A stretch of 64,000 nt of DNA from Xestospongia bergquistia (lineage: Eukaryota > Porifera > Demospongiae > Haplosclerida > Petrosiidae): the NCBI GenBank assembly GCA_963965975.1, contig OZ014414.1, positions 868,001-932,000 on the forward strand, in the 5' to 3' direction. A model generated the notes under the pieces. It searched no databases. It was given only the letters and a program-made list of their open reading frames with translations, and was not told where the DNA came from. Of this stretch, positions 467 to 50,059 are shown one piece after another. The translations under genes were made by a program, and so were the position numbers. Numbering within the stretch: the first letter of the stretch is position 1; each line of letters opens with the position of its first letter.

Positions 467-2860
467 TTACAAAGGTTTTCCATGGACAGGATTCATTGTT
501 TCCGTGATAGGATTAAGGTAAACAGGATTGTCTTGTTTGGTATGCTTTGCCTGGTTAACTTCCCAAACAAACTGCTTGTACTCACGATGGTCCCTGTACA
601 TTAAAATCAGCTTGATTAGTACAATAACAAATATCCCTATAATAATAAGACCACATAGAATGATCAATACAATGGCCCAAATTGGTATTGGCAGACAAGA
701 TTCAGGTTCAACTTCGTAAACGAGTGTGGAATTCATTGACAGTGCTATATAATAAACATACTTGCATTCTGTTGTGCTGAAACTACAATGTTGTGTAGAA
801 CCCGAAATGGTGTTTGGTATGGTATATGTGTTAATGTCGTATCTATTGTATAAGGCATTATAGTCTATACAACTGCTTGAACAAGTCAAAGCAGGATCAT
901 TTTCCTTTGCATAACATTTTACACAGTCTTCATCACTGATACACTGTGGACGACCTTGAATTGCCAGACTACAATACTGACCAGTATAGCCATCATCACA
1001 AGTACAAGCACTCCCAGGTGATTTACACGGATCACATGTTCCTCGTCCACCACATAATTGGGTTGATGGATTACTTCGATCAACACAATTATCAAATGAA
1101 CATTGACATGAATCTCCACTGTATTGAAGTCCTGTGATAGTAGAGTTGTCACATTCACAATTGTATTCACCATTAGAGCAGGTACATGTGCCACGCCCAC
1201 TACATACTCGTCCACTAGAGTCAGTCTCACATTCATAATTACTACATTCGCAAGCGTTACCTACTATACGAGGATTGACAACCCCTAAAACTGGGTTAGT
1301 TGGTTGTTTACATATGCATTGGCCACATTCACATTGTCCCCTCCCACTACACATGGCACCATTGGGACCTAGAGGACATTGGGCAGTTGAACAAGAGCAG
1401 TCATTTTCCGTCCATCCATTAGTACATGTACAGAGACCACAAGTCAAGTCACCATTAGTGCTACAAGTAGAGCTATTGTATTCAGTTTTATTGTCACAAT
1501 CACAGCTACAAATACCATTAACATTGACAGTGAATTGTCCAAATCCAGGAATACTAAACAGTACTTGCTCACTAACTCCATTCTTAAGATTGTCTGTACA
1601 TTGTAGAAGTGTGAGAGTAATAGTATAGTTAACTGTTCCATTACTAATGTTAGTACATTCATAAGACTGAGGTAAATACATGGATTGGTAAGGACATTTA
1701 GCATTGATACTGGCTGATAGGTAACTGGGAAGATTAAATGAAAGACGGGCATTGGAAACAACCTTTAAATATGCTTCTTCAAGAACATTAACAAGGTTAG
1801 AGGAATCAGCTGCTAATGTTGCAGTAAATCCACCTAATAAAGGGCCTACATTCCTGTTGTATAGATTAAACAAATTTGTAGATGGTGAAGCAACAGCAAA
1901 AACAGGTACAATATCATCATTCTGTAAAACTTCCCTGACTTGTTCTATGCTTGGATAATCTTGCATGATAGCTGCAGTGTTGACAATCTTATCGTAAGAG
2001 GGATCATATTCTGTATGACATTGTCCATCATTTGGTTTTACTATCCCAGCAAGACGTCCATCACCTGCTGTGTGGATGATATCATCAGTCATAACTAGAA
2101 GAATTTTTCGTGACTTCTCCCTCCATCCAACAAGATCTTGACATACTACTGCTTGTAACATAGCACCTAATATATCTTCAGGGTCGTCTACATTATTCGA
2201 TATAATTGTCTTTTGAATTGATGAATTAAAGTGATCAGATGAGTTTGTAAGACTGACAACATGTTCATAATTAAAGGGGATAGCACATAGTGTACTAATA
2301 CAGCTAGATTCTTGTCCATTAATAACAGTCCTACCATTTATTTGAATAGAAGAAACATATGGTAGTGAAGGTTTATCTACATATGATCCAAATCCAATAA
2401 GGAAATCAGAAGACACATCTTGCAAAGCCAATGGAAGCTGGGGAGCTAGACTCTTAACAACATCGAGATCATCTTTAAAGCTACCTGACAAATCCATTAA
2501 CATGTAGATGTCAAGAGGAAAGTCCTCTGCTGCTTTAACTGATACTGTAAAATCCAATGGCTCACCAACTCTCAGTTTGACATTAAGAGACTCCAATGTG
2601 ACTTGGTTATCTTCATCTAGTTCATTGTTATTGACTTGCAAAATTTTATTGACAGTTTCACCAACATTATTTTGACCACACATATCCTTCTTTAAATCAT
2701 CATCTTGAGAGAAACAACCTACATTTGAACCAACAGCTGAACACCAAAGGCAAGAAGCAGTAGATATACATTTAGAACAAGTATTAATGCTGCTACAGTT
2801 AGCAAACTGAGCATAACTGAATCCAACAATTGAAAGGAAGAATAGCAGAATGAGAGACAT
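467..2860 (-). CDS. ITGB: Integrin beta subunit, copy 1 (NPVY tail)
   Basis: Single-exon type I membrane receptor of 797 aa that would pair with an alpha subunit and bind extracellular ligand. I chose the ATG at 2860 because it gives a clean signal peptide (residues 1-17, ending SYA) matching the copy at 6325; an in-frame ATG at 2935 would add 25 non-hydrophobic residues. In order: PSI cysteines (about 20-65), beta-A domain with MIDAS DLSGS at residue 123 and intact ADMIDAS (KDD), SyMBS NVDDPED, the strongly conserved DGRLAGIVKPNDGQCH block, a CISTLC specificity loop, I-EGF modules, beta-tail, and a transmembrane helix near 724-749. The tail has an HDRREF-like DHREY, one NPVY and a degraded second motif NPVH. 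Its I-EGF1-2 resembles copies 5, 7 and 8, although it lies on the opposite strand. Head-to-head with the gene at 3028. Confidence 0.93.
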   Translation of the reverse strand: MSLILLFFLSIVGFSYAQFANCSSINTCSKCISTASCLWCSAVGSNVGCFSQDDDLKKDMCGQNNVGETVNKILQVNNNELDEDNQVTLESLNVKLRVGEPLDFTVSVKAAEDFPLDIYMLMDLSGSFKDDLDVVKSLAPQLPLALQDVSSDFLIGFGSYVDKPSLPYVSSIQINGRTVINGQESSCISTLCAIPFNYEHVVSLTNSSDHFNSSIQKTIISNNVDDPEDILGAMLQAVVCQDLVGWREKSRKILLVMTDDIIHTAGDGRLAGIVKPNDGQCHTEYDPSYDKIVNTAAIMQDYPSIEQVREVLQNDDIVPVFAVASPSTNLFNLYNRNVGPLLGGFTATLAADSSNLVNVLEEAYLKVVSNARLSFNLPSYLSASINAKCPYQSMYLPQSYECTNISNGTVNYTITLTLLQCTDNLKNGVSEQVLFSIPGFGQFTVNVNGICSCDCDNKTEYNSSTCSTNGDLTCGLCTCTNGWTENDCSCSTAQCPLGPNGAMCSGRGQCECGQCICKQPTNPVLGVVNPRIVGNACECSNYECETDSSGRVCSGRGTCTCSNGEYNCECDNSTITGLQYSGDSCQCSFDNCVDRSNPSTQLCGGRGTCDPCKSPGSACTCDDGYTGQYCSLAIQGRPQCISDEDCVKCYAKENDPALTCSSSCIDYNALYNRYDINTYTIPNTISGSTQHCSFSTTECKYVYYIALSMNSTLVYEVEPESCLPIPIWAIVLIILCGLIIIGIFVIVLIKLILMYRDHREYKQFVWEVNQAKHTKQDNPVYLNPITETMNPVHGKPL

Positions 2861-3027
2861 GGTTGACTTTAACTGGTTGGCCTGCCCCACCTCAGTTTTA
2901 GTGACTGAAAGGTCAACAATGAATTTGTTCACCATTCATAAATCTACTTAGCACTACAAGTAAGCAAGGGTGTGGTTCTTCCATGTTATTGATTGAACAG
3001 TAACTTGAGTGTTGGATAGAATTACAT
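2861..3027. promoter_or_regulatory. Divergent promoter region between integrin copies 1 and 2
   Basis: Only 167 bases separate the two chosen start codons (92 if the upstream ATG at 2935 is used), so the two head-to-head integrin genes probably share regulatory DNA. No TATA box or other named element is convincing. The conserved upstream block of the 26-48 kb array is not recognisable here. Confidence 0.45.
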
Positions 3028-5523
3028 ATGTCTGTATCTTCTATTCATCCTATTTTGTTGTTAACTGTACTTATTTCCACCACAAAGGGAGTGAGTAGAA
3101 ATTGCAGTGATTTTGTCAGTTGTTCTGAGTGCATTTTGATTCCTTCATGCCTTTGGTGTTCAACTCCAGGTTTAGCACGCTGTATTGTGGAAAAAGATGT
3201 CTTAAATTATTTTTGCGATGATCAAGACTTGATATGGCCAGTAAGTAAAATTACATCAACAGTAAAGAAGGAGTTAAATCAAAATAATCAAATATCTTTA
3301 GATGCCATTAGTCTTAAACTGAGATTTGGTGAGCCCTTGAGTTTCAATGTGTCAGTCAAAGCTGCAGAGAACTTTCCTCTTGATCTTTACCTATTGATGG
3401 ACCTATCTGGAAGTTTTCGAGATGATCTGGCTACTGTGCATAGTCTAGCTCCACAACTACCATTGATATTACAAAATGTATCATCTGATTTCAGAATAGG
3501 CTTTGGGTCTTTTGTTGACAAGCCAACTTTACCATTCACCTCATCAATACAGACAAATACAGCTTTCAATGTTTCAGGTCAGGCATCTAGTTGCAATGAT
3601 AATATTTGTGCCAAACCTTTCAATTATGAGCATATTATTAGCCTAACAAACTCTACAAGCACTTTTCGCTCACGTCTTGAAGGTATTATCATATCAACTA
3701 ATGTTGATGACCCTGAAGATCCTTTAGGTGCTATGTTTCAAGCCATAGCATGTAAAGACCTTATTGGATGGAGAACATATGCTCGAAAGATAATTCTTGT
3801 TATCACAGATGATGTCTTCCACACAGCAGGTGATGGACGTCTTGCTGGAATAGTAAAACCTAATGATGGACAATGTCATACTGAATACGATACTTCCCTT
3901 CATAAAGCTATTTACACAAACTCACTGACACAAGATTATCCCTCTATACAACAAATGAAAGAGGCTCTTATAGATTCTGGAGTAGTCCCAATATTTGCAA
4001 TATCTAATTCCATGTACTCACAATTGAACTCAGAATTGAATGTAACATATTTTTATAATCAGGTTGCTCAGAATTTTGATGGATTTATTGAAAGATTAAC
4101 ATCAGATTCTGATAACCTAATTGACGTTATAGAAGATGCAACAAAGCAGGCAGCATCCAGAATTAAACTTAGCTTCAACTTGCCACCATATCTTCAGTTT
4201 AATATCACCCCAAGTTGTCCACATGGCTCATCCTTGCTAGATAACGGATTAGGATGTGCCAATGTTAGTCAGAACCAAACAGTTGACTTTAGAGTTGAAA
4301 TATCATTAGCAAAATGTTCTCAAGACATTATGAAAAGACAAAATTTGAAAGTTTCAGTTCCAGGTTTTGGGTATTTTGACGTATTCATTGAAAGCCTGTG
4401 TGGTTGTGATTGTGACAATGAAACAATTCATCACAGTGTTAATTGTAGTAGTAATGGTGACTTTGCATGTGGTTTGTGTACCTGTGATAAAGGATGGACA
4501 GGAACTGATTGCTCTTGCTCTACCAATGACTGTCCTATTGGTCCAAATGGTATCGTATGTAGTGGGAGGGGACAATGTGAATGTGGTCGCTGCCTTTGCT
4601 ACCAGCCTAATAACACTGTTTCAGGAATTTTTAATCCTCATATTATAGGTAATGCTTGTGAATGTAGTAACTATGAATGCAATACTGACTCTAATGGACT
4701 TGTATGTAGTGCGCGTGGCAGATGTAGATGTTCCAATGGCCGATATAGTTGTGAGTGTGATAACTCTACTCTGACAGGAATTCAACACAGTGGAGATGCC
4801 TGTCAATGTTCATATGATCATTGTATTGAGCCCAATAATCAGAAAGCAGTAATTTGCAATGATAAAGGCACTTGTAATCCATGTCAAGTAAATAAAGGGC
4901 AGGCCTGTACTTGCAATACTAATTATATTGGCCAGTACTGTGACATACGTATCAGTGAGGATCTAGAATGTTCCGGACACACGGATTGTATTTTATGCTA
5001 TGGAAAAATGAGTAAGCAAGACATTGAGACAAATCTCTGTCCTAATCTCAACTGTTCAAATTACAAGTTATTACTAGTAAATGGGTCTTTAGCTGACGAC
5101 TATCAGATCCCTTATTCGATTGATAGCACAACAATTCAGTGTGAGTTAAGGAGTGGTGAGTGCTGGTACTCATATTATCAAGCTTTCGACAATGAAGGTA
5201 GAAACATATTTGAAGTGGAGCCTGCGAGTTGCCTACTTTTGCCATTTTGGGGTATAGCACTGCTAATAGCAGTTTGTTGTATAATTTTTGGCATAATTTG
5301 TCTTTGTACCATCAAAGTATGTATCATTGTTGCAGATTATCATAGTTTGAAAGAAGGTAAAGCTACTTGTCTGTTTGAATCTCCAGTATCACACATAAAA
5401 AGGCAGTGGTCTGCTAAAGTAGTCCCAGCTGCTGCAAAGAGTCATTCAGATGACAGCGACACAATGGAATTACTAAATAAAAAAATTGGGGTCTCAGTAC
5501 AAGACATAGAAAACAAATTTTAG
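3028..5523 (+). CDS. ITGB: Integrin beta subunit, copy 2 (tail without NPxY)
   Basis: Single-exon gene, 831 aa, the longest of the set. Signal peptide about 1-22, PSI, beta-A with MIDAS DLSGS at residue 125 and intact ADMIDAS (RDD), SyMBS NVDDPED, specificity loop with a CNDNIC pair, I-EGF repeats (for example CGLCTCDKGW), beta-tail, and a transmembrane helix (about 741-765, starting LLPFWGIALL). The tail is unlike canonical integrin tails: after DYHSLKEG it runs about 60 residues, rich in Ser, Asp and Lys, with AKVVPAAAK, and has no NPxY or NxxY motif and no HDRREF-like block. By family knowledge NPxY binds talin and kindlin, so coupling to actin is probably altered or lost. The tail is shared with copy 3 and with the relic at 9110-9780, so it is an inherited type and not a sequencing error. 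Confidence 0.93.
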   Translation: MSVSSIHPILLLTVLISTTKGVSRNCSDFVSCSECILIPSCLWCSTPGLARCIVEKDVLNYFCDDQDLIWPVSKITSTVKKELNQNNQISLDAISLKLRFGEPLSFNVSVKAAENFPLDLYLLMDLSGSFRDDLATVHSLAPQLPLILQNVSSDFRIGFGSFVDKPTLPFTSSIQTNTAFNVSGQASSCNDNICAKPFNYEHIISLTNSTSTFRSRLEGIIISTNVDDPEDPLGAMFQAIACKDLIGWRTYARKIILVITDDVFHTAGDGRLAGIVKPNDGQCHTEYDTSLHKAIYTNSLTQDYPSIQQMKEALIDSGVVPIFAISNSMYSQLNSELNVTYFYNQVAQNFDGFIERLTSDSDNLIDVIEDATKQAASRIKLSFNLPPYLQFNITPSCPHGSSLLDNGLGCANVSQNQTVDFRVEISLAKCSQDIMKRQNLKVSVPGFGYFDVFIESLCGCDCDNETIHHSVNCSSNGDFACGLCTCDKGWTGTDCSCSTNDCPIGPNGIVCSGRGQCECGRCLCYQPNNTVSGIFNPHIIGNACECSNYECNTDSNGLVCSARGRCRCSNGRYSCECDNSTLTGIQHSGDACQCSYDHCIEPNNQKAVICNDKGTCNPCQVNKGQACTCNTNYIGQYCDIRISEDLECSGHTDCILCYGKMSKQDIETNLCPNLNCSNYKLLLVNGSLADDYQIPYSIDSTTIQCELRSGECWYSYYQAFDNEGRNIFEVEPASCLLLPFWGIALLIAVCCIIFGIICLCTIKVCIIVADYHSLKEGKATCLFESPVSHIKRQWSAKVVPAAAKSHSDDSDTMELLNKKIGVSVQDIENKF

Positions 5524-9035: not shown

Positions 9036-9090
9036 TAGTTTGTTGTTTCTGAACATATCAACCTCCAAAGTGAAGCTGGAATAGTTGATT
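9036..9090 (-). pseudogene. Fragment resembling the 3' end of the afadin last exon
   Basis: About 45 bases here resemble 10018-10066, the end of the afadin coding region on the same strand: TTTGTTGTTTCTGAACATAT against TTTGTTGTCTTTGAACGTAT, followed by further matching bases. It looks like a small duplicated scrap of the afadin 3' end lying beyond the gene. Confidence 0.5.
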
Positions 9091-9109
9091 CATAAGAACA
9101 TTTATTGTA

Positions 9110-9780
9110 GTAGCAATGATGACTTTGCTTGTGGTTCATGTACCTGTGATGATGGATGGATAGGAACTGATTGCTCTTATTCTATCATACTGTGACATGA
9201 CATACTCCAATGGCCAATATAGTCGCCATGCAATGTGACAACTCCTCCCTGACAGGAATACAACACAACAGAGATGCTTGTAAATGTTCATACATTCATT
9301 GCATTGGCTCCATCAACTGAAATTACAATGACAAAGGTACTTGCAAATTACAAGCTATTACTAGTACACAACAATTCAGACTTACCTTCTTTCAAACAAT
9401 GATAACCTGCAACATTAATACATACTTTGATGGTACAAAGACAAATGATGCCAAAAATTATACAACAAAATGCTATTAGCAGTGCTATACCCCAAAACGG
9501 CAAAATTAGGCAATTGCAGACTCCTTCATTTTCCAATGAAAACCTTGATAGTGTGTACTAGCACTCATCACTCATTAATTCACTACTTGTCTGTTAGAGC
9601 CACCAGTAGTACTCTTGAGACAGAGGTCAGCTAAAGTAACTGTTACTTATAAGAATATTGACCACTTTGATAACAACAACAATGATAGAATGGAATTATT
9701 AAATACAAAAGTAGGTTGGACATAGTGAAAGACATAAACTTTTGTGATTATACAATAGTTGAATATCTTGAGTGAATCTA
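9110..9780. pseudogene. Integrin beta relic with an internal inversion
   Basis: Three blocks. About 9110-9387 on plus decays from I-EGF (SSNDDFACGSCTCDDGW, then frameshifts). About 9388-9545 reads on minus and encodes the beta-tail end, transmembrane helix and start of tail (LILPFWGIALLIA, CTIKVCINVAGYH). About 9600-9730 on plus returns to a decayed tail (NDRMELLNTKVG). All blocks are nearest to copy 2 at 3028. The beta-A domain and N-terminus are absent. The inverted middle shows a local inversion inside a dying copy. It is next to the 3' end of afadin. Confidence 0.8.
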
Positions 9781-10013: not shown

Positions 10014-13000
10014 CTACAATTCAGTTTGTTGTCTTTGAACGTATCGACCTCCTAAAGCCAAATTGGAACCAATAGGGGTAGGAGGAGGCTCTGGTCGACC
10101 ACGACTATAACTATGGGGACCTCCTGTTTTACGAGGATGATTACTTCGGCTTGATGAAGTATCCCGTTCAGGAAGTTGGTATCCATGGTTACCACCATGT
10201 TGGCCTTGTTCATAATGAGATTGCATAGCTGATGGTGATTCTAAGATACCATCTCGTGACTGTGGCCTCATTAATGGTACAGATGTGGCATAGTCACGTG
10301 ATACAAAACCAGGATGAAAACGAGAATGTAGTGGTTCTACAAAAGATCCAGAGGACTGTGGCCGTGAACCTAGTTCATGTTGTCGGCTTTTTGTATACGA
10401 TTGAGTATCATGGCCAACTCCACTACCACCAGAGGACTGACGTGAATGAGATATAGACCTGATGGGTGGAGCCAATATTTGTGGAACAACATCTGGTGTT
10501 GAAGATGACAAAGAGCTATCCATAGTAGAGGTATCAAGGCCACTGCCAGTAGGTTTAAGTGGCAAGAAATGGGATGGACTGGTTGGTTGATGAGGCCATT
10601 GCCTGGCTAGGTGTGGTGGATAATAGCTCTCAACTGTTTCCAATTGATGATTAGGACTTTCTTGTTGCCTACGTGCCTCCCTTTTCAGTTGCCGTAATTG
10701 CAATGCTTTCTCTTCAGCAGATCGTGAAGGAATACTATCTAAGCTACTTAGATGTTCCTCCTTGAGCATTCTTACACGTTCTTCTTGTTCATAAGCACTT
10801 GAACTCCCACGACTGATAGGTTTTTTGACATTATGTATCAATTCAGGATTATGCATTAGTGTTGGCAGTTCAGCACTGCCATGAAGGTCAGTCCTGTGAT
10901 ACCAATTGGTAGAAAAAGGTGGACCAGGGCTGCTTGAGTCTGATCGACAACCAAGAGGTGAATTTCGTGCACCACCAGTATGAAAGTCTACACTGCTTGG
11001 AATATTGGATTCTGATCCAATTGAATTTGTGTCTTTAGAAATGTTATCATTACTAATCCAAGATGATCCAGTTGTGATACTCTCAGTGCTAACAACACGA
11101 AGTGGTCGTCCTATTGACTCATTCCATTCCCTCTCTGGAAGCTCTTGCATCATGTGAGTCGATCCTAGACCATGTGACTTACCAGAGCCTTCACACGCTT
11201 GTAATTGTTTCTTGATTTCACTGGCATGCTGTTCTAGTGCTTTCAATCTTGTTTTGGCTTCGCATTCTTTAACTTCTAACTGATGAAGCTCATCCTTTTT
11301 GTTGGATTGGAAATTTTCCCAATCCTTTAATCGTCTTTTCTGATCTCGATGCCACTTGTTTTCATCCTCAGGACGCATAAAAGGTGTCAAATGACGACTG
11401 TTTTGACTTTTAAAACGTGCTTCAGCATTAACTAAGCTCTGCTCTTCACGTTCTTTAGTAAAATGTAACTCTCGACATCGCTTTTTTTGATCGCTAATTA
11501 GCCTTCGTAAAGATTCTAATTCTTGCCTAAGTTTAGTGACCTGTAATAATTTCTCAGGATCCATTATTTCATCATTAAGACTTTTTGTTTCAGTTCCATC
11601 CTTTGCAGACCACTTTAGTGAGGAATTACCTGATGATGGCCTGTCAATAAGAGGTAACTTAGCTTCTTGATCTTGTCTTTCCTTTTCTTGTTGATAGAAA
11701 AGCAATTGCATGCGTTGCTTTTCAAGCTGGATCTCATCCACTTCAAGCTCTGCTAATTCTGATCTTTGCAATTCACCTTTCTTTCCCTTACGACTCAATT
11801 GATCAAGAACAGATGACACAGAGAGACCAGTAGAACTCATCTGAGTGTGATATCCTACTTCCATGCTAAGTTTCTCAACCATAAGTGATGGATATGATTG
11901 AGAACTAGAATTAAGGTCTGGATCTGAAGGTTGGCAAGAAAGACTGGACGGAATATCCTTGAATCGTGATTGAGAGTTACCAGTGATTGAAGAGTCAGAT
12001 GTAAGCTGGTCGAGAGGAGATGGATACTTCGGAAAGCCTACTCCACTTGTGCTTGATGTAGAACTATAGGTAGGATCAACTACCTTTGATGCTGAATTTA
12101 TAACATTAAAATTGCCATAGGAGGATTTAGAATGATGACCTCGTCGATTGTCTGAGACATCAGAGGCATGATGTGCAGTCATTAGAAAATGTTCATGTTG
12201 AGGTGCATTATGTAACTTCAATTGATTAAAAGAAGATGACGGCATTGGTAAGGAAGGTTCCTCTCGCTCAGGTACTACTAGGGAGGACAGACTGGAAGAA
12301 GGTTTTGGAGGTGGTGATATTCTATGATATCCTGATGGTTTTTGCTGATGAGCAATTTCTCTTTGGTCTTGTATCCATCTTTCTATGTGTGAAGTTGCAG
12401 ATTGTGGAGGAGGTGGAACAGGTGATGACATCGGAGGTTGGTACTCAGGTCCATGATAACTATCATAACTAATGCGACTTGGATTTTGTTGCTGATTACG
12501 TCTTTGTCTTCTAGCAGCTTTCATAGCATGAGAACTTCCCTCTTTTGGTGGAGGGCCTTTTTGGGAGAGAATGAGATAAAGCTAAAGTAAGCTTATTCAC
12601 TAATTCATGTACTAACCATATTCATGAGGGACAGGGACTTTTACTGCTTTCCGAGAGATTTGTGGCGATGTCTGGAGGACTTCATTAAGACCAAACAACT
12701 GGGCTACCTGAGTAGCTACTGTGATAGTCACCTGACTAGCACTGTTCCGTAGAAGCTTGATAACTCTAAAAAAAGACATTATTTCCATTCACACAGAAAA
12801 ATATATTAAATTACTAAACATTATCAAAACTTCATGTGGAGTCAAAAATACATGACAGAGGTTAGGTACTTACAATTCTTTGGTGTATCCAGCTAATGTT
12901 GTGTTATCAATTTTCAGTATTTGATCACCAGGATGTAAACGTCCGTCCTATTTAATTTACATATCATGAAAATTAACACCAATAATGAACTCACTTGATC

Positions 13001-24186: not shown

Positions 24187-24261
<75 letters not shown>

Positions 24262-29119: not shown

Positions 29120-29862
29120 AGTGGCTTCCATTATTGCAATAAATGTTTGTGTCTTCATTTTGTTAGTTATGTCATTCAGTTTTAAATTGATAATTTACTA
29201 GAATAATCAGTTAAGTTATACTTGAGCTCTAAAAACTAAAATTCATTGACAATTATACTCAAAAATTATTGTTGATAAATGTACACCATGTGACTATTGT
29301 GATAGTGTGTATATATGATTGTTTTTTCTTTTAATTTACTGATTTGCCTGTCAAGTTCATCTATTAATTTGTTTATTTATCTAAGCACCTAATCATCCTT
29401 TTATATCATTGATTGATCTGTATTCATCCATCCAGTCTATTCATTTATCCATTCATCAGTTTACCTCTCCATTGATCAATCCATTTACTGTTTTATATCT
29501 TAATGTACATGTCCTTTAGTTTAACTTTTAAGGTTTATTAACTATTCTACCTGTTTGCTCATGAAAGTTTCTTTTCTATTCTTTAGAGTTACAAAATGCA
29601 TAAGAATAAAACTAACTTTGAACAAACTCTGGCTTCCATTAGGAACAAACAATTAAACTTCTTACATGTATATTAGACAAGACAGTAGTTATATTATTAG
29701 TGGTAAGAGACTCATGTGCCCCATACATACCACATACATGTCAAATACACGAACTGCTAATTCCCCATAGTAATTAGTATTCACAACAGTGTATGTTGTC
29801 AATAGTTTTTGATGTATTTTTAGACAAGTTGTAAACCTACCTATTACCTGTTTGCTGATTAC
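29120..29862. repeat. Trailing flank of the array unit (repeated at 33.86 and 38.35 kb)
   Basis: Non-coding. Nearly the same sequence follows copies 5 (33856-34625) and 6 (38348-38870, shortened). Contains a low-complexity stretch of CATCCATCC/ATTCATT type near 29390-29480. Confidence 0.8.
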
Positions 29863-30451
29863 TATGTTACAAGGTGTGGTATGTAAAGATCTTGTTGGAT
29901 GGAAAGAAAACTCAAAAGATTCTTCTTATTATGACTGACAATGTCCTCCAAACAGTACGTGATGGACATCTTGCTGGAATAGTAAAACCAAATGTGACCT
30001 GATTTGCAAAAAGGGACCAAAACATTTGTGACCTTATTTGTGAAAAAAAAACATTGTTAAAAATACCAAAAAAACAGTTTTGCATACATATAGAATAGTT
30101 ATGCATATATAACAACTGTATGTATACAAAACTGTTTTTTGAGATGTTTTAACAGTGTATTTTCACAAATCAGGTCACAAATGTTTTGACAGAAGTGGTC
30201 CCTTTTTGCAAATCAGGTCACATTTAATGATGACATACAAGATATGATCCTCTTACAACAAGGTAGTCAAAAATGCAGCACTCATGAAAGATTATCCAAG
30301 CATAGAACAAATCATACACTGAAGGTCATAAGAGACCAGGTAACTTTCCTCCAGATGATTGTTTTTCTACAAAAGAATCATCTTACACTCGACAAGGAGA
30401 GGAAAAAAGGACTCATGATACATCAACACAAGTACACTGGACAAAATGATA
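29863..30451 (+). pseudogene. Composite relic: integrin beta-A fragment fused to 22.6/25.2-kb-type exons
   Basis: From about 29863 the sequence matches the beta-A core (CKDLVGW region through AGIVKPN), is interrupted by a foldback element (29990-30225), resumes with a decayed DPSYNK...DYPSIEQ region to about 30312, and then passes directly into TEGHKRPGNFPPDD (as in the exon at 23824) followed in frame by KESSYTRQGEEK...QVHWTK (as in the exon at 25515). The integrin part is frameshifted. A second copy lies at 34626-34972. Confidence 0.75.
29990..30225. mobile_element. Foldback/MITE-like element with TGTGACC ends
   Basis: About 235 bases with long terminal inverted repeats: the left end AAATGTGACCTGATTTGC is the exact reverse complement of the right end, and similarity continues inward (AAAAGGGACC against GGTCCCTTTTT). 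A second internal palindrome surrounds the AAACAGTTTTG / CAAAACTGTTT arms. The sister copy of this relic (near 34751-34760) lacks the element, so it gives the empty site. No coding capacity. The exact target duplication is ambiguous. Confidence 0.8.
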
Positions 30452-33855: not shown

Positions 33856-34625
33856 AGTGGCTTCCATTATTGTAATAAATGTTTGTGTCTTCATTTAGTT
33901 AGTTATGACATTCAGTTTTAAATTGATAATTTACTAGAACAATTAGTTAAGTTATACTTGAGCTCTAAAAACTAAAATTCATCGACAATTATACTCATAA
34001 ATTATTGTTGAGAATTGTACACCATGTGACTATTGTGCATGATAGTGTGTGTATATGATTGTTTTTTCTTTTAATTTACTAATTTGGCTGTCAAGTTCAT
34101 CTATTAATTTGTTTATTTATCTAAGCACCTAATTATCCTTTTCTATCATCAATTGATCTCTATTCATCCATCCAGTCCATTCAATTATCCATCCATCAGC
34201 TTACCTCTCCATCGATCAATCCATTTACTGTTTTATATCTTTAATGTACATGTCCTTTAGTTTAACTTTTAAGGTTTATTAACTATTCTACCTGTTTATT
34301 AACTATTCTACCTGTTTGCTCATGAAATTTTTTTTTCTATTCTTTATAGTTACAAAATGCATAAGAATAAAACTAACTTTGAACAAACTCTGGCTCCCAT
34401 TAGGAACAAACAATTAAACTTCTTACATGTATATTAGACTAGACAGTAGTTATATTATTATTAGTAAGAGACACATGGTGCCTCATACATACCACATACA
34501 TGTCAAATATATGAACTGTTAATTCCCCATAGTAATTAGTAATCACAACAGTGTATGTTGTCAATACTTTTTGATGTATTTTTAGACAAGTTGTAAACCT
34601 ACCTATTACCTGCTTGCTGATTACT
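33856..34625. repeat. Trailing flank of the second array unit
   Basis: Repeat of 29120-29862. Includes a perfect 20-base tandem duplication (TTTATTAACTATTCTACCTG twice, about 34275-34314) that the 29.5-kb copy has only once. Confidence 0.8.
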
Positions 34626-34972
34626 ATATTACAAGGTGTGATATGTAAAGATCTTGTTGGATGGAGAGAAAACTCAAAAGATTCTTCTTATTATGACTGA
34701 CAATGTCCTCCAAACAGTATGTGATGGACATCTTGCTGGAATAGTAAAACCAAATGATGACATACAAGATATGATCCTCTTACAACAAGGTAGACAAAAA
34801 TACAGCACTCATGAAAGATTATCCAAGCATAGAACAAATCATACACTGAGGGTCATAAGAGACCAGGTAACTTCCTCCAGATGATGGTTTTCCTACAAAA
34901 GAATCATCTTACACTCAACGAGGAGAGGATAAAAGGACTCATGATACATCAACACAAGTACACTGGACAAAA
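34626..34972 (+). pseudogene. Second copy of the composite integrin/22.6-kb-type relic
   Basis: Same order as 29863-30451 but without the inserted foldback element: decayed beta-A fragment (ILLIMTDNVLQTVCDGHLAG), then a GHKRPGN-like block, then KESSYTQRGED...QVHWTK. One base is missing in the GNFPPDD part relative to the other copy, which breaks the reading frame. Confidence 0.75.
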
Positions 34973-38347: not shown

Positions 38348-38931
38348 AGAGGCTTCTGTTATTGCAATAAATGTTTGTGTCTTCATTTAGTTAGTTATGT
38401 CATTCAGTTTTAAATTGATAATTTACTATAATAATCAGTTAAGTTATACTTGAGCTCTAAAAACTAAAATTCATTGAAAATTATACTCAAAAATTATTGT
38501 TGGTTAATGTACACCATGTGACTATTGTGATAGCGTGTGTATTGTGATAGTGTGTGTAGTTTGACATTTAAGGTTTATTAACTAGTCTGCCTGTTTGCTC
38601 CTGAAATTTTCTTTTCTATTTTTTACAAGTTACAAGTTGTATAAGAAAGAACTAACATTGAACAAACTCTGGCTTCCATTAGAAACAATCTTTTAACATT
38701 AACCTTTATATGTATATTGGACTAGACAGTAGTTATATTATTATTAGTAAGAGACAAATGGCGCCTCATACATACCACAAACATGTCAAATACATGAACT
38801 GTTAATTCACCATAGTAATTAGTAATCACACCAGTGTATGTTGTCAATACTTTTTTATTTTTTATGCAAGTATGCAACCTATAAGTTACTGTAAAGTAGT
38901 GTCATGTAGTGTCAAAAACATGCATCCTAAC
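38348..38931. repeat. Trailing flank of the third unit
   Basis: Shortened version of 29120-29862; the composite relic is missing and the sequence leads directly into a broken integrin copy. Confidence 0.7.
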
Positions 38932-40819
38932 ATGGCTTATCATATTTTGTTGTATATACTGTTTCAAGTTTCTTTCTTACATCTTGGAACTGCTCAGTTG
39001 ACTAACTGTACTAATTTTGTCAGTTGCTCTGAGTGTATCTCAACTGCCTCTTGTGTCTGGTGTTCTACTCCTGGTAGTGCTCACTGTCTTTCTCAGCTGG
39101 ATAATGTTACTGGATGTAATAAGCAAGATTTATTTCAACCAGTGAGTAATATTACAGATCAGTATGACCTGCCACTAAATGAGAAAAACCAAGTATCTTT
39201 GGAAACTATAAGTCTTAAACTGAGAGTTGGTGAACCACTGAATTTCACAGTGTCAGTTAAAGCTGCTGAGGATTTTCCTCTAGACCTGTATTTGTTGATG
39301 GATCTATCTGGAAGCTTTATCTATGATCGTTATGTTGTGACGAACTTAGCTATCCAACCTCCATTAGCTTTATGAAATGTGTCTTCTGATTTCCTCATTG
39401 GCTTTGGGACATTTGTTGATAAACCTTCATTGCCATATGGACACAGTCGACCACTTAGCTGTTACATAAGACTATGTGCTAAATCTTTTGATTATGCACA
39501 TGTTGTCAGTCTTACTAACTCATCTGATCTCTTTAAATCATCAATTGAGGACATAATTACATCAGGTAATGTTGATGATCCTGAAGATCCATTAGGTGCT
39601 ATATTACAAGCTGTAGTGTGTAAAGATCTTGTTGGATGGGGAGAGAAGTCACAAAAAATAATTTTTATTATGACAAATGATGTCCTCCACACAGCAGGCG
39701 ATGGACGTCTTGCTGGGTTAGTTAAACCAAATGATGGACAATGTCATACACAATATGATCCCTCTTACAATAAGACTGTCAACACTGCAGCTATCATGCA
39801 AGATTATCCAAGCATAGCACAAGTCAAAGAAGCTTTACAGGATGATAATATTGTACCTGGGGGACAATTTGAATGTGGCCAATGCATATGTAAACATCCT
39901 AAATGGATGGGCTGGTAATAATTGCTCCCACTCTACTACTAATACTACTATGATTACTACTACTAATAATGTTTCTTGTCCTATTGGTCCAAATGGCATT
40001 GAATGTAGTGGGAGGGGACAATGTGAATGTGGTCAATGTGTATGTACACAAACAATTACAACAGTATCAGGAGTCCTTAATCCACTTATTGTAGGTGATG
40101 CTTGTGAGTGTAGCAACTTTGAATGTGATACTGACTTTAATAGAGTGGTATGTAGTGGGCGTGGTCTATGTATGTGTTCCAATGGTCAGTACACCTGTCA
40201 GTGTAATATATCATCACTGACAGGAGAAACACACACTGGAGATGCATGTCAGTGTTCGTCTGACCACTGCATTGATCTTAATAATGCAAGTCTTATATGC
40301 AATGGACGAGGAAGGTGTAACCCATGTCAACCACAAGGCAGAGCATGTACATGTAATGATGGATATGGTGGGCAATATTGTGAGACAACATTTAAATCAA
40401 TGTTAGCTGTGTGTACTAATACTAGTACTATCAGAGAGTGTGTTAAATGCTATGGTGAAGCAGCAGAAGATAACAAACATGTCTCTTTGGTATGTTCACA
40501 TTTGACTTGTTATAATTACACACTGCTTATTGAAGACCCTTCACAAGATAATTATGATGTTCTTGGAGCAGTTAATGGCAGTAATGTTGATTGTTCCTTT
40601 ATTAGTGAGGATTGCCATTATATATATTATGTGGGTTTAATGCCCGAAGGGACAAATATCTATGCAGTACCACCACGTGAATGCCTTCCTATTCCATCGT
40701 GGGCAATAGCTACGATTAATCTGTCTACTTTAGTAACCATTGGAACTGCTTTGTTGCTTATTATCAAATGCTGCATTATGTATATGGATTTTGTAAAATC
40801 CAAAAGAAGAAGACAATAG
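38932..40819 (+). pseudogene. Broken integrin beta copy (nonsense, large deletion, frame change)
   Basis: Starts with a good signal peptide and PSI (MAYHILLYILFQ) and MIDAS DLSGS, but ADMIDAS is degraded (IYDR) and the codon at 39373 is TGA where intact copies have CGA or AGA. The same frame then runs on through a beta-A domain with a Cys-pair loop (SCYIRLC) to DDNIVPGG, where it jumps into an I-EGF2-like scrap (QFECGQCICK) and stops at 39918. The I-EGF1 to tail part continues in another frame (about 39900-40819: NGWAGNNCSHS to transmembrane to DFVKSKRRRQ) with no NPxY. Roughly 170 codons (end of beta-A, hybrid, PSI-proximal part) are missing, and the EGF order is scrambled at the junction. 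The downstream half is still fully open, so loss may be recent. Confidence 0.85.
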
Positions 40820-41329: not shown

Positions 41330-42041
41330 ATACTCGTTCCAATGGTATGTAAACCTAGACTGTCATTGTAATATTTCTTGACAGGACAAACAAGCAATGA
41401 AGGGACATGTCAATGTTCATCTGACCACTGTATTGATCTTAATAATGGAGCCTGTATGCAATAGGTAAGGAAGGTGTACCCCATGTCAACCTCAAGGCAG
41501 GGCATGTACATGCAATGATGGATGCAGAGGACAATATTGTGAGACAATGTTAGGTCACTGTTAGTTGTATGTGATTACTCTGGTACTGTCAGAGAGTGTG
41601 TTAAATGCTATGGTAAAGCAGCAGAAGGTAACAAAGAAGTCTCCTCATTATGTTCTGGTTTGATCAGGAGTAACTACACATTACTCCATGAAGATCCATC
41701 GCAAGATGATTATGATGATAATATTGATGACAGTACTATTGCCTTTTTCCTTTATTTATGGAGATTGTCATTGTAATTATTATGTGGGGTTAACAACTAA
41801 TAAAGGGGTGTCTATGTAGTACTACCACATGAGTGCTTCCTTTTTCCATTTTGGTCTATGAATCTGATGATCACGTTCACTTTAAAAGTGATTGGATGTA
41901 TAATATTGATGATAATAAAGTGCTGTATTATATATTTGCATTATGGTAAATTCAAAGTGAAGGGATCAAAATATTTCTTAATAATTATAAATCCATTGTA
42001 TGATAACTTTTTTATGCTAATGCCACTAATCTTAGAAAGTA
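41330..42041 (+). pseudogene. Integrin beta C-terminal relic
   Basis: Decayed I-EGF3-4 (CQCSSDHCIDLNN, then a stop; CQPQGRACTCNDG), beta-tail (RECVKCYGKAAEGNKEVSS), transmembrane segment and tail ending near ATNLRK, with several frameshifts and stops. Homologous to about 46390-47023, and both relics precede an intact copy by about 600 bases, so the relic travels with the duplicated unit. Confidence 0.8.
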
Positions 42042-42548: not shown

Positions 42549-42660
42549 CTGTAGTTGTCACAACAGTCATGTTGACACATTTTGCTATAAAATCACAAGC
42601 TAATGTAACAGTCAGTGTGTCCTGCCTACACAAAAGTGTCATTAAATCTCAATACCAAAG
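42549..42660 (+). promoter_or_regulatory. Conserved upstream block of integrin copy 7
   Basis: Carries the inverted element (42557-42576) plus the GTCAGTGTGTCCTGCCTACA and CATTAAATCTCA segments shared across the array. Confidence 0.6.
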
Positions 42661-45072: not shown

Positions 45073-45117
45073 CATTTATGATATGACAGTAATACTTTAG
45101 CAGCTGTTGTGTGTCAA

Positions 45118-45119
45118 TA

Positions 45120-45148
<29 letters not shown>
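45118..45148. repeat. (GT)n microsatellite in 3' flank of copy 7
   Basis: About 15 GT units just after the stop codon; the corresponding place after copy 8 (about 50107-50119) has only a few units. Confidence 0.9.
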
Positions 45149-45150
<2 letters not shown>

Positions 45151-45760
45151 ATGTTATTTAGTATTTATATTATTGAAGTATATGCAGTAAATATATTGAA
45201 AGCCTCTTATAGTATTATGACTGTTAATTGTTGACTGTAGCAGTTTTTGTTAGCACCCCACTTGTGTATATTATATAGTGTGAGTAAATTGTATAATTAT
45301 TGGATATCATATATGTGGTTGTAATAGGACATACTGTTTATATAACATGTGATGTTACTGACATTTCATAGCTTTTCTTGTTTAAATAAAATATACTCTT
45401 CAGCTTTCAACAACATTGTAATGTTTACTCATGATTCATTAATGAATTACACTTCAAAAGTCTTAACTCCATATTCTCATAACTGATTTAAGTTAGATCA
45501 TAGTTGTGTTGAGTTCATATCACCATACACATATTGATGCAGTGTAATACACTAAATGTAAGAAAATTACATGACACGTCACACTACAAAACAACACTTG
45601 TTTCTTCCTGATAAGGAAATCAATGTGATGACACTATAGCAAACTTTCAAACCATTGTTGCCTCTTAGGATGGATATTAGTGATATTTTGAAACATTTAT
45701 ATGGACAAAAGACGCAACACTGAAAGTTTTGATTGCTTGTTTTGACAAGAAAATAGGAGA
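45149..45760. repeat. 3' flank of copy 7, repeated after copy 8
   Basis: Closely matches about 50120-50670 (for example CATTTCATAGCTTTTCTTGT and TTCAAAAGTCTTAACTCCAT in both). The match ends around ATAGGAGAGG at 45750 and 50670, marking a duplication breakpoint where the next relic begins. Confidence 0.75.
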
Positions 45761-47023
45761 GGCCTTATACTTACCAGATACTTACGAATTTGCTGGCTTG
45801 GTAATGGAACAGTTACCTTCTCCATTTCTCTAATGCTTCAAAAATGCATCAACAACTTTAAAAATGGAATCACTGAGCAAATAACCTTTCATATTCCTGG
45901 ATTTGGACAGTCTACAGTTGATATTAAAGGTATATGTAGCTGTGACTGTGATAATGAGACAGAATAAAATAGTCATTGTTAATAGCATTTGTATCTTTGA
46001 CTGTGACAATAAAACTGAATACAACAGCTCTACTTGTAGCACTAATGGTGACTTGACTTGTGATCTCTGTATGTATGTTAATGGTTGGGCTGGTAATAAT
46101 TGTTCCAGTTCTACTACTAATAATGTTTCTTGTCCTATTGGTCCAAATGGCAAGGAATGTAGTGGGAGGGGACAATGTGGAACAATTGTGGCCATGGTAT
46201 TTGCATGGAACCAAATACAAGAATCCAAAGAGTTCCTAATTCACATATTGTAGGTAATGTTTGTGAATGCAGCAACTTTGAATGTGATACTGACTCCAAT
46301 GGGGTGGTATGTAGTGGGTGTGGTCTGTGTATGTGTTCCAATGGTCAGTACACCTGTCTGTGTGACAGGGTGAAGCATACTGGAGGTGCATGTCAATGTT
46401 CGTCTGACCACTGTATCGATCCTAATAATGCATGTCTTATCTGGAGGAAGGTGTAACCCACAAGGCAGGGCATGTACATGTAATGATGGATATGGTGGGC
46501 AATATTGTGAGACAACATTTAAATCATTGCTAGCTGTATGTGATATTACTAGTAGTGTCAGTGAGTGTGTTAAATGTTATAGTGAAGCAGCAGAAGATAA
46601 CAAAGAAGTCTCCTCAATATGTCCTGGTTTGATCAGCAGTAACTCTTAACACAACTACTCCATGAAGATCCATTCCAAGATGATTATGATGGAACTGTTG
46701 ATGACAGTACTACTGAATATTCCTTTCTTGATAGAGATTGTCATTGTAATTATTATGTGGGACTAACAACTAATGAAGGGAGTGTCTATGTAGTGCTACC
46801 ACGTGAGTGCTTCCTTTTTCCACTTTGGACTATGGCTTTGATGATCACATTCATTTTAAAAGTGATTGGACGTATAATCTTGATGATAATAAGGTACTGT
46901 ATTATATGTTTGGATTATGGTAAATTCAAAATGAAGGAATCAAAAGAAGATTTCTTAATAATTTTAAATCCATTGTATAATAACTTAGTTCTTTAAGCTA
47001 ATGTCACTAATCTTAGAAAGTAA
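45761..47023 (+). pseudogene. Integrin beta C-terminal half relic
   Basis: Begins abruptly in the hybrid domain (LYLPDTYEFAGL) and runs through hybrid, I-EGF1-4, beta-tail, transmembrane and tail to about 47023, broken into at least four frames. The start of I-EGF1 is present twice (CSCDCDNETE and IFDCDNKTEYNSS, about 45937-46020), a short internal duplication. The Thr linker is short (STTNNVSCP) and part of the I-EGF3-4 linker is lost. It cannot encode a receptor. Confidence 0.85.
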
Positions 47024-47531
47024 AAAAGTGGCCTTCCTTATTGCAATAAATAATGTTTATTCTACAATAATTGTTTATGTCTTTACAAGTTAATTTGTTA
47101 TGACATTCAGTTTTGATTGTTTTTAAAGTGGTAAAATATATAATACAAACCTGTTAGGTTATACTTTGTAAAATAAAAATCAATAATAACAATTCTGTAT
47201 TTGGTCTATACTAGATGGATAATGTTAGGATCATATTCTAAATATCTCCACATTGCTATATAGCAAACATACTTAAAAAAAGTTGGGAAGTAGTGAAATA
47301 TACATATGGATCTTGTGTTTACAAATACATATTTTTGGATTGATTGGTAGGCTAAAGTAATCTCATTTGTTTTTACAGTAAATTATGTCATTACAATCTT
47401 ACTTAACTTAGGATTACTTTATACAGCACTATTTTTCTGTCTTGTGACATGTATTTGCCATTAGCAGTTATGATTGAAACTTTATATACACAATGATACA
47501 ACAACTGTACATTCTTAGGTTATATTTGTAC
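47024..47531. repeat. Flank shared with 42042-42548
   Basis: Non-coding; same sequence as upstream of copy 7 with small indels. Confidence 0.75.
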
Positions 47532-47644
47532 TGTAGTTTGTCACAACAGTCATATTGACACATTTTTGTCTTAAAATCACAAGCTAATGTGACAGTCAGT
47601 GTGTCCTACCTACAAAAAAGTGTCATTAAACCTCATTACCAAAG
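47532..47644 (+). promoter_or_regulatory. Conserved upstream block of integrin copy 8
   Basis: Inverted element at 47540-47559 with one change (CATATTGAC), followed by GTGACAGTCAGTGTGTCC and the pre-ATG segment CTCATTACCAAAG. Confidence 0.6.
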
Positions 47645-50059
47645 ATGGCTTACAATATCCTATTGTATCTTTTGGTTCAAGTTTCTTTCTTACATCTTGG
47701 AACTGCTCAGTTGAGTAACTGTACTAATTTTGTCAGTTGCTCTGAGTGTATCTCAACTACCTCTTGTGTCTGGTGTTCTACTCCTGGTAGTGCTCACTGT
47801 CTCTCTCAGGATAATGTTACTGGATGTAATGAGCAAGATTTATTTCAACCTATGAGTAATATTACAGATCAGTATGACATGCCACTAAATGAGAAAAACC
47901 AAGTATCCTTAGAAACTATAAGTCTTAAACTGAGGGTTGGTGAACCACTGACTTTCACAGTGTCAGTAAAAGCCGCAGAGGATTTTCCTCTTGACTTGTA
48001 TATGTTGATGGATCTGTCTGGAAGCTTTGAAGGTGATCTTATTGTTGTGAAGGGCTTAGCTCCCCAACTTCCACTAGCTTTAAGAAATGTGTCATCTGAT
48101 TTTCTCATTGGCTTTGGGACATTTGTTGATAAACCTTCACTACCATATACTTCATCTGTTCAAAAGAATACAATACATAATGTTTCAGGTCAACCAAGTT
48201 GTGATGCTAAGAAACTCTGTGCTAAACCTTTTGATTATGAACATATTGTCAGTCTTACTAACTCATCTGATCTTTTCAATTCATTAGTACAAGAGACTGT
48301 TATATCAAGTAATGTTGATGATCCTGAAGACCCACTAGGTGCAATGTTACAAGCTGTGGTATGTAAAGGACTTGTTGGATGGAGAGAAAACTCTCGAAAG
48401 ATTCTTCTTATAATGACAGATGATGTCCTCCACACAGCAGGTGACGGACGTCTTGCTGGAATAGTGAAACCAAATGATGGACAATGTCATACACAATATG
48501 ATCCTTCTTATAACAAAGTAGTCAATAATGCAGCACTCATGCAAGATTATCCAAGCATAGAACAAGTAAGGGAAGTTTTACAAGACAATGATATCATACC
48601 TGTTTTTGCCATATCTTTATCAGAAAATGCTTTAGTCATATATAACACAACTGTAGGTCCATCTCTAGGTGGATTTACAACAATATTAACAGCTAATTCT
48701 ACTAACCTTGTTAATGTTCTTGAAGAAGCATATTTAAAGGTTGTTTCCAGTGCTCGTCTTTCTTTTAATCTTCCTAATTACCTTTCAGTCAATATTACAG
48801 CTAACTGTCCTCCAGAGGCCATATACTTACCAGATACTTATGAATGTGCTGGCATTGGTAATGGAACAGTTACTTTCACCATTACTCTTATGCTTAAAAA
48901 ATGCACCAATAACTTTAAAAATGGAATCACTGAGCAAGTAGTTTTTCATATTCCTGGATTTGGACAGTTTACAGTTGATATCGATGGTATTTGTAGCTGT
49001 GACTGCGACAGTGAAACTGAATACAATAGCTCAACTTGTAGCACTAATGGTGACTTGACTTGTGGTCTCTGTACATGTACTAATGGATGGATGGAAAATG
49101 ACTGCTCTTGTTCAACTGCTCAATGTCCTTTAGGTCCCAATGGTGCAGTATGTAGTGGGAGGGGACAATGTGAATGTGGTCAATGTGTATGTACACAAAC
49201 AATTACAACAGTATCAGGTGTTCACAATCCACGTATTGTAGGTAATGCTTGTGAGTGTAGTAACTATGAATGTGATACTGGCTCTAATGGACTGGTATGT
49301 AGTGGGCGTGGTCTGTGTATGTGTTCTAATGGTCAGTACACCTGTAAGTGTAATATATCACCACTGACAGGAGAAACACACACTGGAGATGCATGTCAGT
49401 GTTCGTCTGACCACTGCATAGATCCTAATAATATAGGTCGTGTATGCAATGGACGAGGAACCTGTGACTCATGTCAACCTCAAGGCAGGGCATGTATATG
49501 TAATGATGGATACAGAGGACAATATTGTGAGACAACAACATCAATGTCACTAGTAGCAGTATGTGATAACTCTGGTACTGTCAGAGAGTGTGTTAAGTGC
49601 TATGGTGAAGCTGCAAAAGATAACAAAGAAATCTCTTCAATATGTCTTGGTTTGATTTGTGGTAACTTCACACTACTCCGTGAAGAACCATCACAAGGTG
49701 ATTATGATGTTCCTGGAACTGTTGATAGCAGTACTGTTGACTGTTCCTTTATTGATGGGGAATGTCGTTATAATTATTATGTGGGGTTATCAACTAATGA
49801 AGAGAGTATCTATGCAGTGCCACCCCGAGCATGCTTACTTATTCCATCATGGTCTATAGCTTTGATTGTTCTAGTCTTTTTAGTTATTATTGGATGCCTT
49901 GTCTTGGTGTGTATAAAGTGCTGTATTATGTATTTGGATTATCGAGAGTTTAAAAAGTTTGAAAAAGAAGTGAAAGAAGTGGACTTCTCAAAAAGTTCAA
50001 ATCCTTTGTACCACAAGCCAGATGTTACATATACTAATATAGCGTATGGAAAAGAATGA
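47645..50059 (+). CDS. ITGB: Integrin beta subunit, copy 8 (canonical NPLY + NIAY tail)
   Basis: Single exon, 804 aa, nearest to copy 7 (4984 bases between starts). MIDAS DLSGS at 123, ADMIDAS Gly variant (EGD), specificity loop PSCDAKKLCAKPF with Cys pair but a different preceding segment (NTIHNVSGQ instead of NTKLTFKGQ; the NVSGQ form is otherwise seen in copy 2). I-EGF1 reads NGWMENDCSC. Tail YLDYREFKKFEKEV, NPLY, TNIAYGKE. All domain cysteines seen in copy 7 appear kept. Confidence 0.94.
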   Translation: MAYNILLYLLVQVSFLHLGTAQLSNCTNFVSCSECISTTSCVWCSTPGSAHCLSQDNVTGCNEQDLFQPMSNITDQYDMPLNEKNQVSLETISLKLRVGEPLTFTVSVKAAEDFPLDLYMLMDLSGSFEGDLIVVKGLAPQLPLALRNVSSDFLIGFGTFVDKPSLPYTSSVQKNTIHNVSGQPSCDAKKLCAKPFDYEHIVSLTNSSDLFNSLVQETVISSNVDDPEDPLGAMLQAVVCKGLVGWRENSRKILLIMTDDVLHTAGDGRLAGIVKPNDGQCHTQYDPSYNKVVNNAALMQDYPSIEQVREVLQDNDIIPVFAISLSENALVIYNTTVGPSLGGFTTILTANSTNLVNVLEEAYLKVVSSARLSFNLPNYLSVNITANCPPEAIYLPDTYECAGIGNGTVTFTITLMLKKCTNNFKNGITEQVVFHIPGFGQFTVDIDGICSCDCDSETEYNSSTCSTNGDLTCGLCTCTNGWMENDCSCSTAQCPLGPNGAVCSGRGQCECGQCVCTQTITTVSGVHNPRIVGNACECSNYECDTGSNGLVCSGRGLCMCSNGQYTCKCNISPLTGETHTGDACQCSSDHCIDPNNIGRVCNGRGTCDSCQPQGRACICNDGYRGQYCETTTSMSLVAVCDNSGTVRECVKCYGEAAKDNKEISSICLGLICGNFTLLREEPSQGDYDVPGTVDSSTVDCSFIDGECRYNYYVGLSTNEESIYAVPPRACLLIPSWSIALIVLVFLVIIGCLVLVCIKCCIMYLDYREFKKFEKEVKEVDFSKSSNPLYHKPDVTYTNIAYGKE

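Follow-up and report, generated by a model that had tools for sequence, protein, structure and literature searches.

Introduction

Sponges have been reported with many integrin beta genes. The genome of Ephydatia muelleri holds 36, and clusters of them lie on scaffolds 2 and 4 (PMC7385117; this and the other reports cited by PMC number were available as excerpts, to which our statements about them are limited), and published counts for seven sponges, Terpios and six others, range from 3 to 18. Here we describe arrays of beta-integrin genes in the sponge Xestospongia bergquistia, centering on a stretch of 64,000 nucleotides (the window; contig C4, positions 868001–932000, of an assembly of 146.46 Mb in 21 contigs). 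Like the betas of E. muelleri, Terpios and the other sponges, these genes are multi-copy, clustered and similar in coding sequence, and belong to the same protein family; to judge from mitochondrial gene content, the sponges also belong to one class. They differ in gene structure: many of the duplicated Ephydatia clusters keep an identical intron-exon structure (PMC7385117), whereas the Xestospongia arrays consist of single-exon genes. The excerpts of the Ephydatia report make no mention of betas with a single exon, of loop hypervariability, of positive selection or of exchanged tails (PMC7385117).

Vertebrate betas offer further comparisons. The zebrafish genes beta1-2, truncated beta1 and beta1-3 likewise lie in tandem, with substitutions in the site adjacent to the metal-ion-dependent adhesion site (ADMIDAS and MIDAS, respectively), an altered specificity-determining loop (SDL) and, in some, no tail (PMC1538996). 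They are few, however, and have conserved exon-intron boundaries, and the excerpts report no selection on their loops (PMC1538996). Integrin beta8 has also lost ADMIDAS side chains and its dependence on talin (PMC6889490), but it is a single gene in which D8 and D9 of the beta-MIDAS motif (DXSXSXXDD) are both replaced; the copies described here keep D9 throughout (17/17).

An earlier note on this DNA had set the cluster against animals in general, most of which were said to have few beta genes and none in arrays. For Xestospongia this is a poor contrast, because sponges have been reported with many betas and the zebrafish with a small tandem array. That sponge betas are many and clustered is already published; new here are the single-exon arrays, the hypervariable ligand face and the mosaicism. 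We found no report of single-exon beta arrays in sponges, or of selection on ligand loops, in the excerpts retrieved from open-licence PMC full text; beta arrays are absent from those that deal with haplosclerid and Oscarella sponges.

Sponges lack adaptive immunity, and how they tell bacteria, prey and the tissue of other sponges apart remains to be explained. Like the genes described here, the FREP, SpTransformer and SRCR families and the allorecognition genes of Botryllus and Hydractinia form arrays with birth and death, mosaic copies and variation directed at the binding site. Those families are built on other folds, whereas here the scaffold is a core adhesion receptor, known from one assembly. 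If the loops of the integrin-beta VWA domain (betaI) carry that specificity, a diversified receptor system would have been built, close to the root of the animals, from their adhesion machinery, and candidate specificity residues can now be named. Even without a recognition role, these are intron-free integrin arrays whose ligand face changes at a much higher rate than the remaining protein.

A tandem array of intact and broken beta integrins

Between positions 467 and 50059 the window holds eight intact beta-integrin open reading frames (ORFs) of 790–831 aa, each in one exon, named B1–B8 from left to right (Table 1); the earlier note had placed eight intact betas in about 50 kb at these positions. 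Outside them tblastn found seven broken stretches, close to the "about six" broken copies that it had counted. B4–B8 are repeated units that include their flanks, as it had also proposed: their starts are spaced by 4790, 4468, 6710 and 4984 bp, with a broken copy inside the 6710-bp step, the similarity between the B4 and B5 units extends ∼1.1 kb 5' of the ATG and ∼0.9 kb beyond the stop, and the B7 and B8 units match at 89% across 4.3 kb. Repeated units, relics and exchange between copies (see below) support the view of the cluster as a tandem array under birth-and-death evolution. The further claim that this evolution is recent fits pairs such as B7/B8 and does not extend to the whole array, because the eight copies differ by 9–51% in protein.

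That these are integrin betas was indicated by several comparisons. Four window copies were scanned with Pfam-A, and betaI was found in all of them (E 2e-70 to 3e-75), I-EGF_1 in three (B3 fell just below the cut-off) and the tail domain in one. Genome scanning with PF00362 gave a match above cut-off in each of B1–B8 and in none of 14 control genomes. B8, the one copy compared with PDB, aligned with human beta-1 over residues 27–801, tail included (E 2e-98). Across an alignment of 17 intact copies from this and three further clusters, D1, S3, S5 and D9 of the beta-MIDAS motif are kept in all, as are N, D, P and E of the synergistic metal-binding site (SyMBS). The equivalent of D251 is kept in 16, B4 having Lys, and that of residue 252 is Asp in 16 (numbering mapped through the alignment of B8 with human beta-1). 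A complete ADMIDAS is not general: D9 is present in 17/17 and D8 in only 4/17. NPxY occurs in 14 of the 17 tails and both motifs in 10; B2, B3 and the truncated D3 have none. Judged from sequence, the copies appear to keep what a beta subunit requires, namely a hydrophobic start, MIDAS and SyMBS residues, an EGF stalk and a transmembrane helix. By analogy, absence of D8 should be no bar to membership of the integrin betas, since beta8 lacks both D8 and D9.

Sister clusters and intron-bearing relatives

PF00362 had 36 matches in the genome. Besides the window there are three further clusters of single-exon betas, termed C4a, C1 and C6 after their contigs (copies A1–A5, D1–D3 and E1, respectively; Table 1), bringing the intact ORFs to 17, a total that rests on the PF00362 scan and includes D3, which ends early at 762 aa and has no tail. 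At four other beta loci, three on contig C9 and one on C5, the PF00362 matches come in short blocks with changing frames, and these loci look intron-bearing. One of the C9 genes reads DLSGSLRDDL and NVDDPE; it carries the usual pair of D8 and D9 and is clearly related. Because an intronless family thus stands beside intron-bearing relatives, we infer that the single-exon arrays were retroposed and then amplified. Relatives were also sought in the collections genome_contigs and viral_contigs, which are not meant for animals, using two peptide patterns each from an eight-copy betaI alignment; 0 of 97 and 0 of 115 pattern stretches were confirmed.

Variation on the ligand face of betaI

The 17-copy alignment has three variable patches. 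The first consists of residues X7 and D8 of the beta-MIDAS motif, the second is the SDL and the third the beta5-alpha6 loop. They were placed by aligning sequences and from the roles that individual residues have in the literature. All 17 SDL strings are different, with lengths of 12–23 residues; four have no cysteines, and in B4 the pair is displaced. B4–B8 and the sister-cluster copies vary at the same columns, with 10 shared among the top 29 of 247 in each group (3.4 expected, p 5e-4). The claim that variation is concentrated on functional sites was borne out, in that loops on the metal/ligand face of betaI vary and the MIDAS and SyMBS residues are invariant. Most differences between copies fall in the loops that face ligand and alpha subunit, and some tails differ too.

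Selection on the loops

Codon models were run in our own re-implementation on IQ-TREE trees, for the nine sister-cluster copies (A1–A5, D1–D3 and E1) and for B4–B8. Pooled counts gave a loop dN/dS of 1.29 in the sister clusters, where the remainder of betaI gave 0.35; the corresponding values in B4–B8 were 0.90 and 0.22. The codon model of betaI put loop omega in the sister clusters at 1.74 versus 0.20 for the rest, above 1 at p 1.1e-5; gap-free columns gave 2.06 versus 0.28 (above 1 at p 6e-6), and a tree made from loop-free columns 2.23 versus 0.26 (above 1 at p 1.3e-6). Loop omega was 2.32 in the A copies alone (p 0.004) and 2.49 in the D/E copies alone (p 6.5e-5). M2a was preferred over M1a at p 3e-9, 4e-6 and 4e-10 in the full, gap-free and loop-free-tree treatments, respectively.

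Sites with P >0.9 were columns 155 (D8), 202–204 and 215 (SDL), 351 (third loop) and 287, the last lying two residues beyond the equivalent of D251. At P >0.8, columns 154, 211, 216, 314, 316, 372, 373, 384 and 398 were added by the subsets and by the loop-free run. With the loops taken out, betaI still gave p 0.004, led by column 287, and in the rest of the ectodomain the signal was weaker, at p 0.028 with one site. Among seven sister pairs the loops had an N:S ratio 4.2 times higher than the remainder (p 4e-8), and in B4–B8 M2a was still preferred (p 0.0014).

Several points weigh against reading all of this as positive selection on the loops. In the window array, B4–B8 loop omega was 1.06 versus 0.15 for the rest, near neutral and not above 1, and columns picked in the sister clusters gave 0.88 in B4–B8, again not above 1. 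Columns picked in B4–B8 gave 1.29 in the sister clusters, where the constrained fit did not converge and the test was left unused. For the seven sister pairs, loop N over S per site reached only p 0.066. Columns 287, 314, 316, 384 and 398, all outside the loops, also passed P 0.8 in some run. Synonymous divergence is likewise raised in the loops, which are indel-rich and were picked by eye after alignment, and recombination among paralogs breaks the single-tree assumption and can inflate site models. We therefore credit positive selection to the loops of the sister clusters, and not to the window array by itself, because the B4–B8 loops are near neutral. The per-domain dN/dS that the earlier note had suggested as a check of diversifying receptors came out accordingly: above 1 in the C4a, C1 and C6 loops (omega 1.74–2.23) and not in those of B4–B8.

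Exchange between copies

Window copies are mosaics. B1 and B3 are 92–100% identical over alignment columns 50–199, but in the SDL window B3 is 93–98% identical to B5/B6 and only 67% to B1. At columns 525–574 B1 is 92–98% identical to B5/B7, compared with 57–78% to B3, and beyond column 600, in stalk and tail, B3 is nearest to B2. The two near-identical heads are therefore borne on different stalks and tails; the B1 tail has NPVY, and that of B3 has no NPxY. Run tests with 300 shuffles reached the smallest attainable p for half of the B pairs (14 of 28), for one of the 10 A pairs and for none of the six D/E pairs, although this test takes no account of rate variation along the gene. Cassettes, the SDL included, have moved between copies.

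Alpha subunits

Integrin alphas were found at no fewer than five loci, so at least five: on contig C9 at 289, 295, 301 and 732 kb and on C1 at 15.14 Mb. This count is a lower bound; FG-GAP gave one match and a 100-aa exon query eight, the latter at C9 289, 295 and 732 kb and C1 15.14 Mb, and PF20805 also found alphas. The three loci that were read bear introns. No alpha was matched in the window by FG-GAP, PF20805 or the exon query, in agreement with the earlier note; PF08441 matched nowhere, controls included, and is uninformative. The note's suggestion that many betas may share one or few alphas also fits the counts as far as they go, 17 intact array betas plus four intron-bearing-looking beta loci versus at least five alpha loci.

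In the stretches C9 294–303 kb and 303–312 kb, intron-bearing-looking alphas (minus strand) and betas (plus strand) are neighbors, possibly an ancestral alpha-beta gene neighborhood.

A candidate recognition system and its alternatives

With slightly more confidence than doubt, we read the arrays as recognition receptors that share few alphas, by way of retroposed, amplified and loop-diversified betas. A spliced beta-integrin mRNA would have been copied back as a single-exon gene, which was then amplified by tandem duplication and reached further chromosomes. Each copy would pair with one of the few shared alphas and lend it a ligand pocket of its own. Gene conversion would shift SDL, EGF and tail cassettes among copies, and selection would favor novel loop sequences, in the sister clusters at least. 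Copies with NPxY may signal through talin, and those without could be modulators or decoys. The likeliest task would be discriminating the surfaces that sponge cells meet, such as bacteria, food particles and other sponge cells, with an immune, self/non-self or pathogen-facing role as a candidate. A broader proposal is tentative and in our judgment rather doubtful: that integrin serves demosponges as a diversified recognition system, in which retroposed single-exon betas in gene-conversion arrays supply many pockets for few alphas, with loop cassettes and tails reassorted, to discriminate symbionts, prey, pathogens and foreign sponge cells.

Sharing of alphas, interchangeable pockets and a recognition task are suggested by work on other integrins. 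Ephydatia alpha-1 was judged by its authors probably to pair with several betas, and at the junctions between Ephydatia cells and bacteria vinculin and sometimes FAK were found (PMC6820919). The SDL disulphide loop is linked to ligand specificity (PMC2397394, PMC1538996) and to alpha pairing too (PMC2397394). Two observations from Ephydatia pull the other way: the excerpts of that study do not report labeling of the junctions with bacteria by the beta-integrin antibody, and alphas need not be few, because the transcriptome has six of them for seven betas (PMC6820919).

Ligand affinity would probably be tuned copy by copy at the D8 site, a step we propose because this ADMIDAS aspartate is gone in 13 of the 17 copies. 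D8 and D9 furnish ADMIDAS side chains, and with both as Asn the affinity of alphaVbeta6 was six-fold higher (PMC6889490). Ligand binding by beta3 is lowered by Asp at 252, restored on removal of D126 (D8) or D127, and nearly abolished on removal of both (PMC3792891). Most Xestospongia copies resemble the restored beta3 double mutant, since 252 is Asp in 16/17, D8 is lost in 13/17 and D9 is kept in 17/17. The effect of losing D8 may nonetheless go in either direction, because mutation of the ADMIDAS aspartates in human beta1 is stated to inactivate alpha5beta1 (PMC1538996).

Window loops that are not above neutrality (omega 1.06), seven broken stretches amid eight intact genes, and the lack of NPxY in three of the 17 tails, including a truncated one, are also what redundant adhesion genes under relaxed constraint would present: spare copies whose loops drift and among which conversion shuffles the drift, with no recognition role. 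Such drift accords poorly with the clear purifying selection on the remainder of betaI (omega 0.15–0.34), with MIDAS and SyMBS residues that are invariant in 17/17, and with sister-cluster loops that exceed neutrality under all three treatments of the data and in the A and D/E copies taken separately, and we consider it unlikely, if deserving of serious attention. The loops might instead have diversified for partners within the sponge, fitting particular alphas or self matrix ligands in each cell type, as a form of tissue specialization. The SDL is implicated in alpha pairing as well (PMC2397394, PMC1538996), an antibody recognizing three Ephydatia betas recovered alphas 1 and 3, and the Ephydatia transcriptome has six alphas and seven betas (PMC6820919), while several alpha loci occur in the present genome. 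However, at least five alpha loci are few partners for 21 beta loci to specialize on, and repeated turnover at the same sites and exchange of cassettes would be unneeded for stable pairing; we rate this alternative as improbable.

A trivial explanation, that haplotypes or collapsed repeats were laid out as a false array, was rejected on the divergence of the copies and their distinct relics. Array regions are hard to assemble, and our check was made on the assembly sequence alone, but the window copies differ by the 9–51% given above, the relics between them are differently broken, relatives lie on three contigs, and the window is without any N; an artefact is hardly credible.

Coordinates and neighboring genes

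Table 1. Beta-integrin copies, relics and variable sites. Coordinates are window positions except for the three sister clusters, which are located on their contigs.
Feature	Position	Strand	Basis and remarks
B1, intact single-exon beta-integrin, 822 aa	467..2935	-	ORF list and Pfam; tail NPVY, distal motif NPVH
B2, intact single-exon beta-integrin, 831 aa, divergent	3028..5523	+	ORF list and Pfam; tail without NPxY
B3, intact single-exon beta-integrin, 806 aa	6325..8745	+	no cysteines in SDL; tail lacks NPxY
Relic, query aa 467-616, EGF region	9088..9347	+	tblastn
Relic, query aa 697-788, transmembrane/tail region, B2-like	9333..9581	- (opposite strand)	tblastn
B4, intact single-exon beta-integrin, 808 aa	26693..29119	+	D251 equivalent is Lys
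Relic, query aa 224-308, between B4 and B5	29852..30313	+	tblastn
B5, intact single-exon beta-integrin, 790 aa	31483..33855	+	shortened SDL without cysteines
Relic, query aa 224-333, between B5 and B6	34614..34840	+	tblastn
B6, intact single-exon beta-integrin, 798 aa	35951..38347	+	shortened SDL without cysteines
Broken copy, pieces from query aa 1-788	38908..40816	+	holds most of 325-aa ORF 39842-40819
Relic, query aa 564-799	41378..42016	+	tblastn
B7, intact single-exon beta-integrin, 803 aa	42661..45072	+	tail NPLY and NIAY
Relic, query aa 381-810	45759..47020	+	tblastn
B8, intact single-exon beta-integrin, 804 aa	47645..50059	+	aligned to human beta-1
B8 hypervariable site 1, residues 129-130, X7 and D8 of beta-MIDAS DXSXSXXDD	48029..48034	+	hand-counted from human beta-1 alignment
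B8 hypervariable site 2, SDL, residues 174-195	48164..48229	+	hand-counted from human beta-1 alignment
B8 hypervariable site 3, beta5-alpha6 loop, residues 323-332	48611..48640	+	hand-counted from human beta-1 alignment
Cluster C4a, A1-A5 intact	C4 225-244 kb		single-exon
Cluster C1, D1-D3 intact, three broken	C1 27.865-27.925 Mb		single-exon
Cluster C6, E1 intact, one broken	C6 6.877-6.883 Mb		single-exon

B1 and B2 are arranged head to head; their first ATGs are separated by 92 bp (window 2935–3028), a gap that is possibly a shared promoter. B1 has an internal ATG 25 codons in that may be its true start, in which case the gap would be ∼167 bp. Between B3 and B4, on the minus strand at 10014–19253, lie ORFs with an RA domain and an FHA domain, followed by an 836-aa ORF without a Pfam match; this order is presumably that of an afadin-like adhesion scaffold. 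To the right of the array are two convergent single-ORF ankyrin-repeat genes, alike by eye, at 56892–59015 (+) and 59408–61600 (-), which may be reminiscent of Fem-1 proteins.

The sister clusters also have neighbors. A class C (7tm_3) receptor ORF at C4 222150–223028 adjoins cluster C4a, and a retrotransposon pol-like ORF of 1189 aa (C6 6886387–6889956) lies ∼3.4 kb from the C6 beta copies.

Contig C21 (18,997 bp) is mitochondrial. Its cox1 is open only with TGA read as an amino acid (nine internal TGA), its 25 tRNA-like genes share a single strand, and an ORF of 78 aa encodes ATP synthase subunit c, the product of atp9. The presence of atp9 in mtDNA is a demosponge trait, and we conclude that the host is a demosponge. 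Of six contigs whose lengths were noted, one has 28.2 Mb and four nuclear ones have 7.5–9.8 Mb, which would agree with the karyotype of Ephydatia and its single large chromosome (PMC7385117). Cathepsin/silicatein was set aside as a sponge marker: it gave 76 matches, and the one fragment compared with PDB was about equally close to a cathepsin L and to silicatein alpha. Broken pieces of cox1 also occur in nuclear contig C6, at 3.155 Mb and 3.199 Mb, apparently as mitochondrial insertions.

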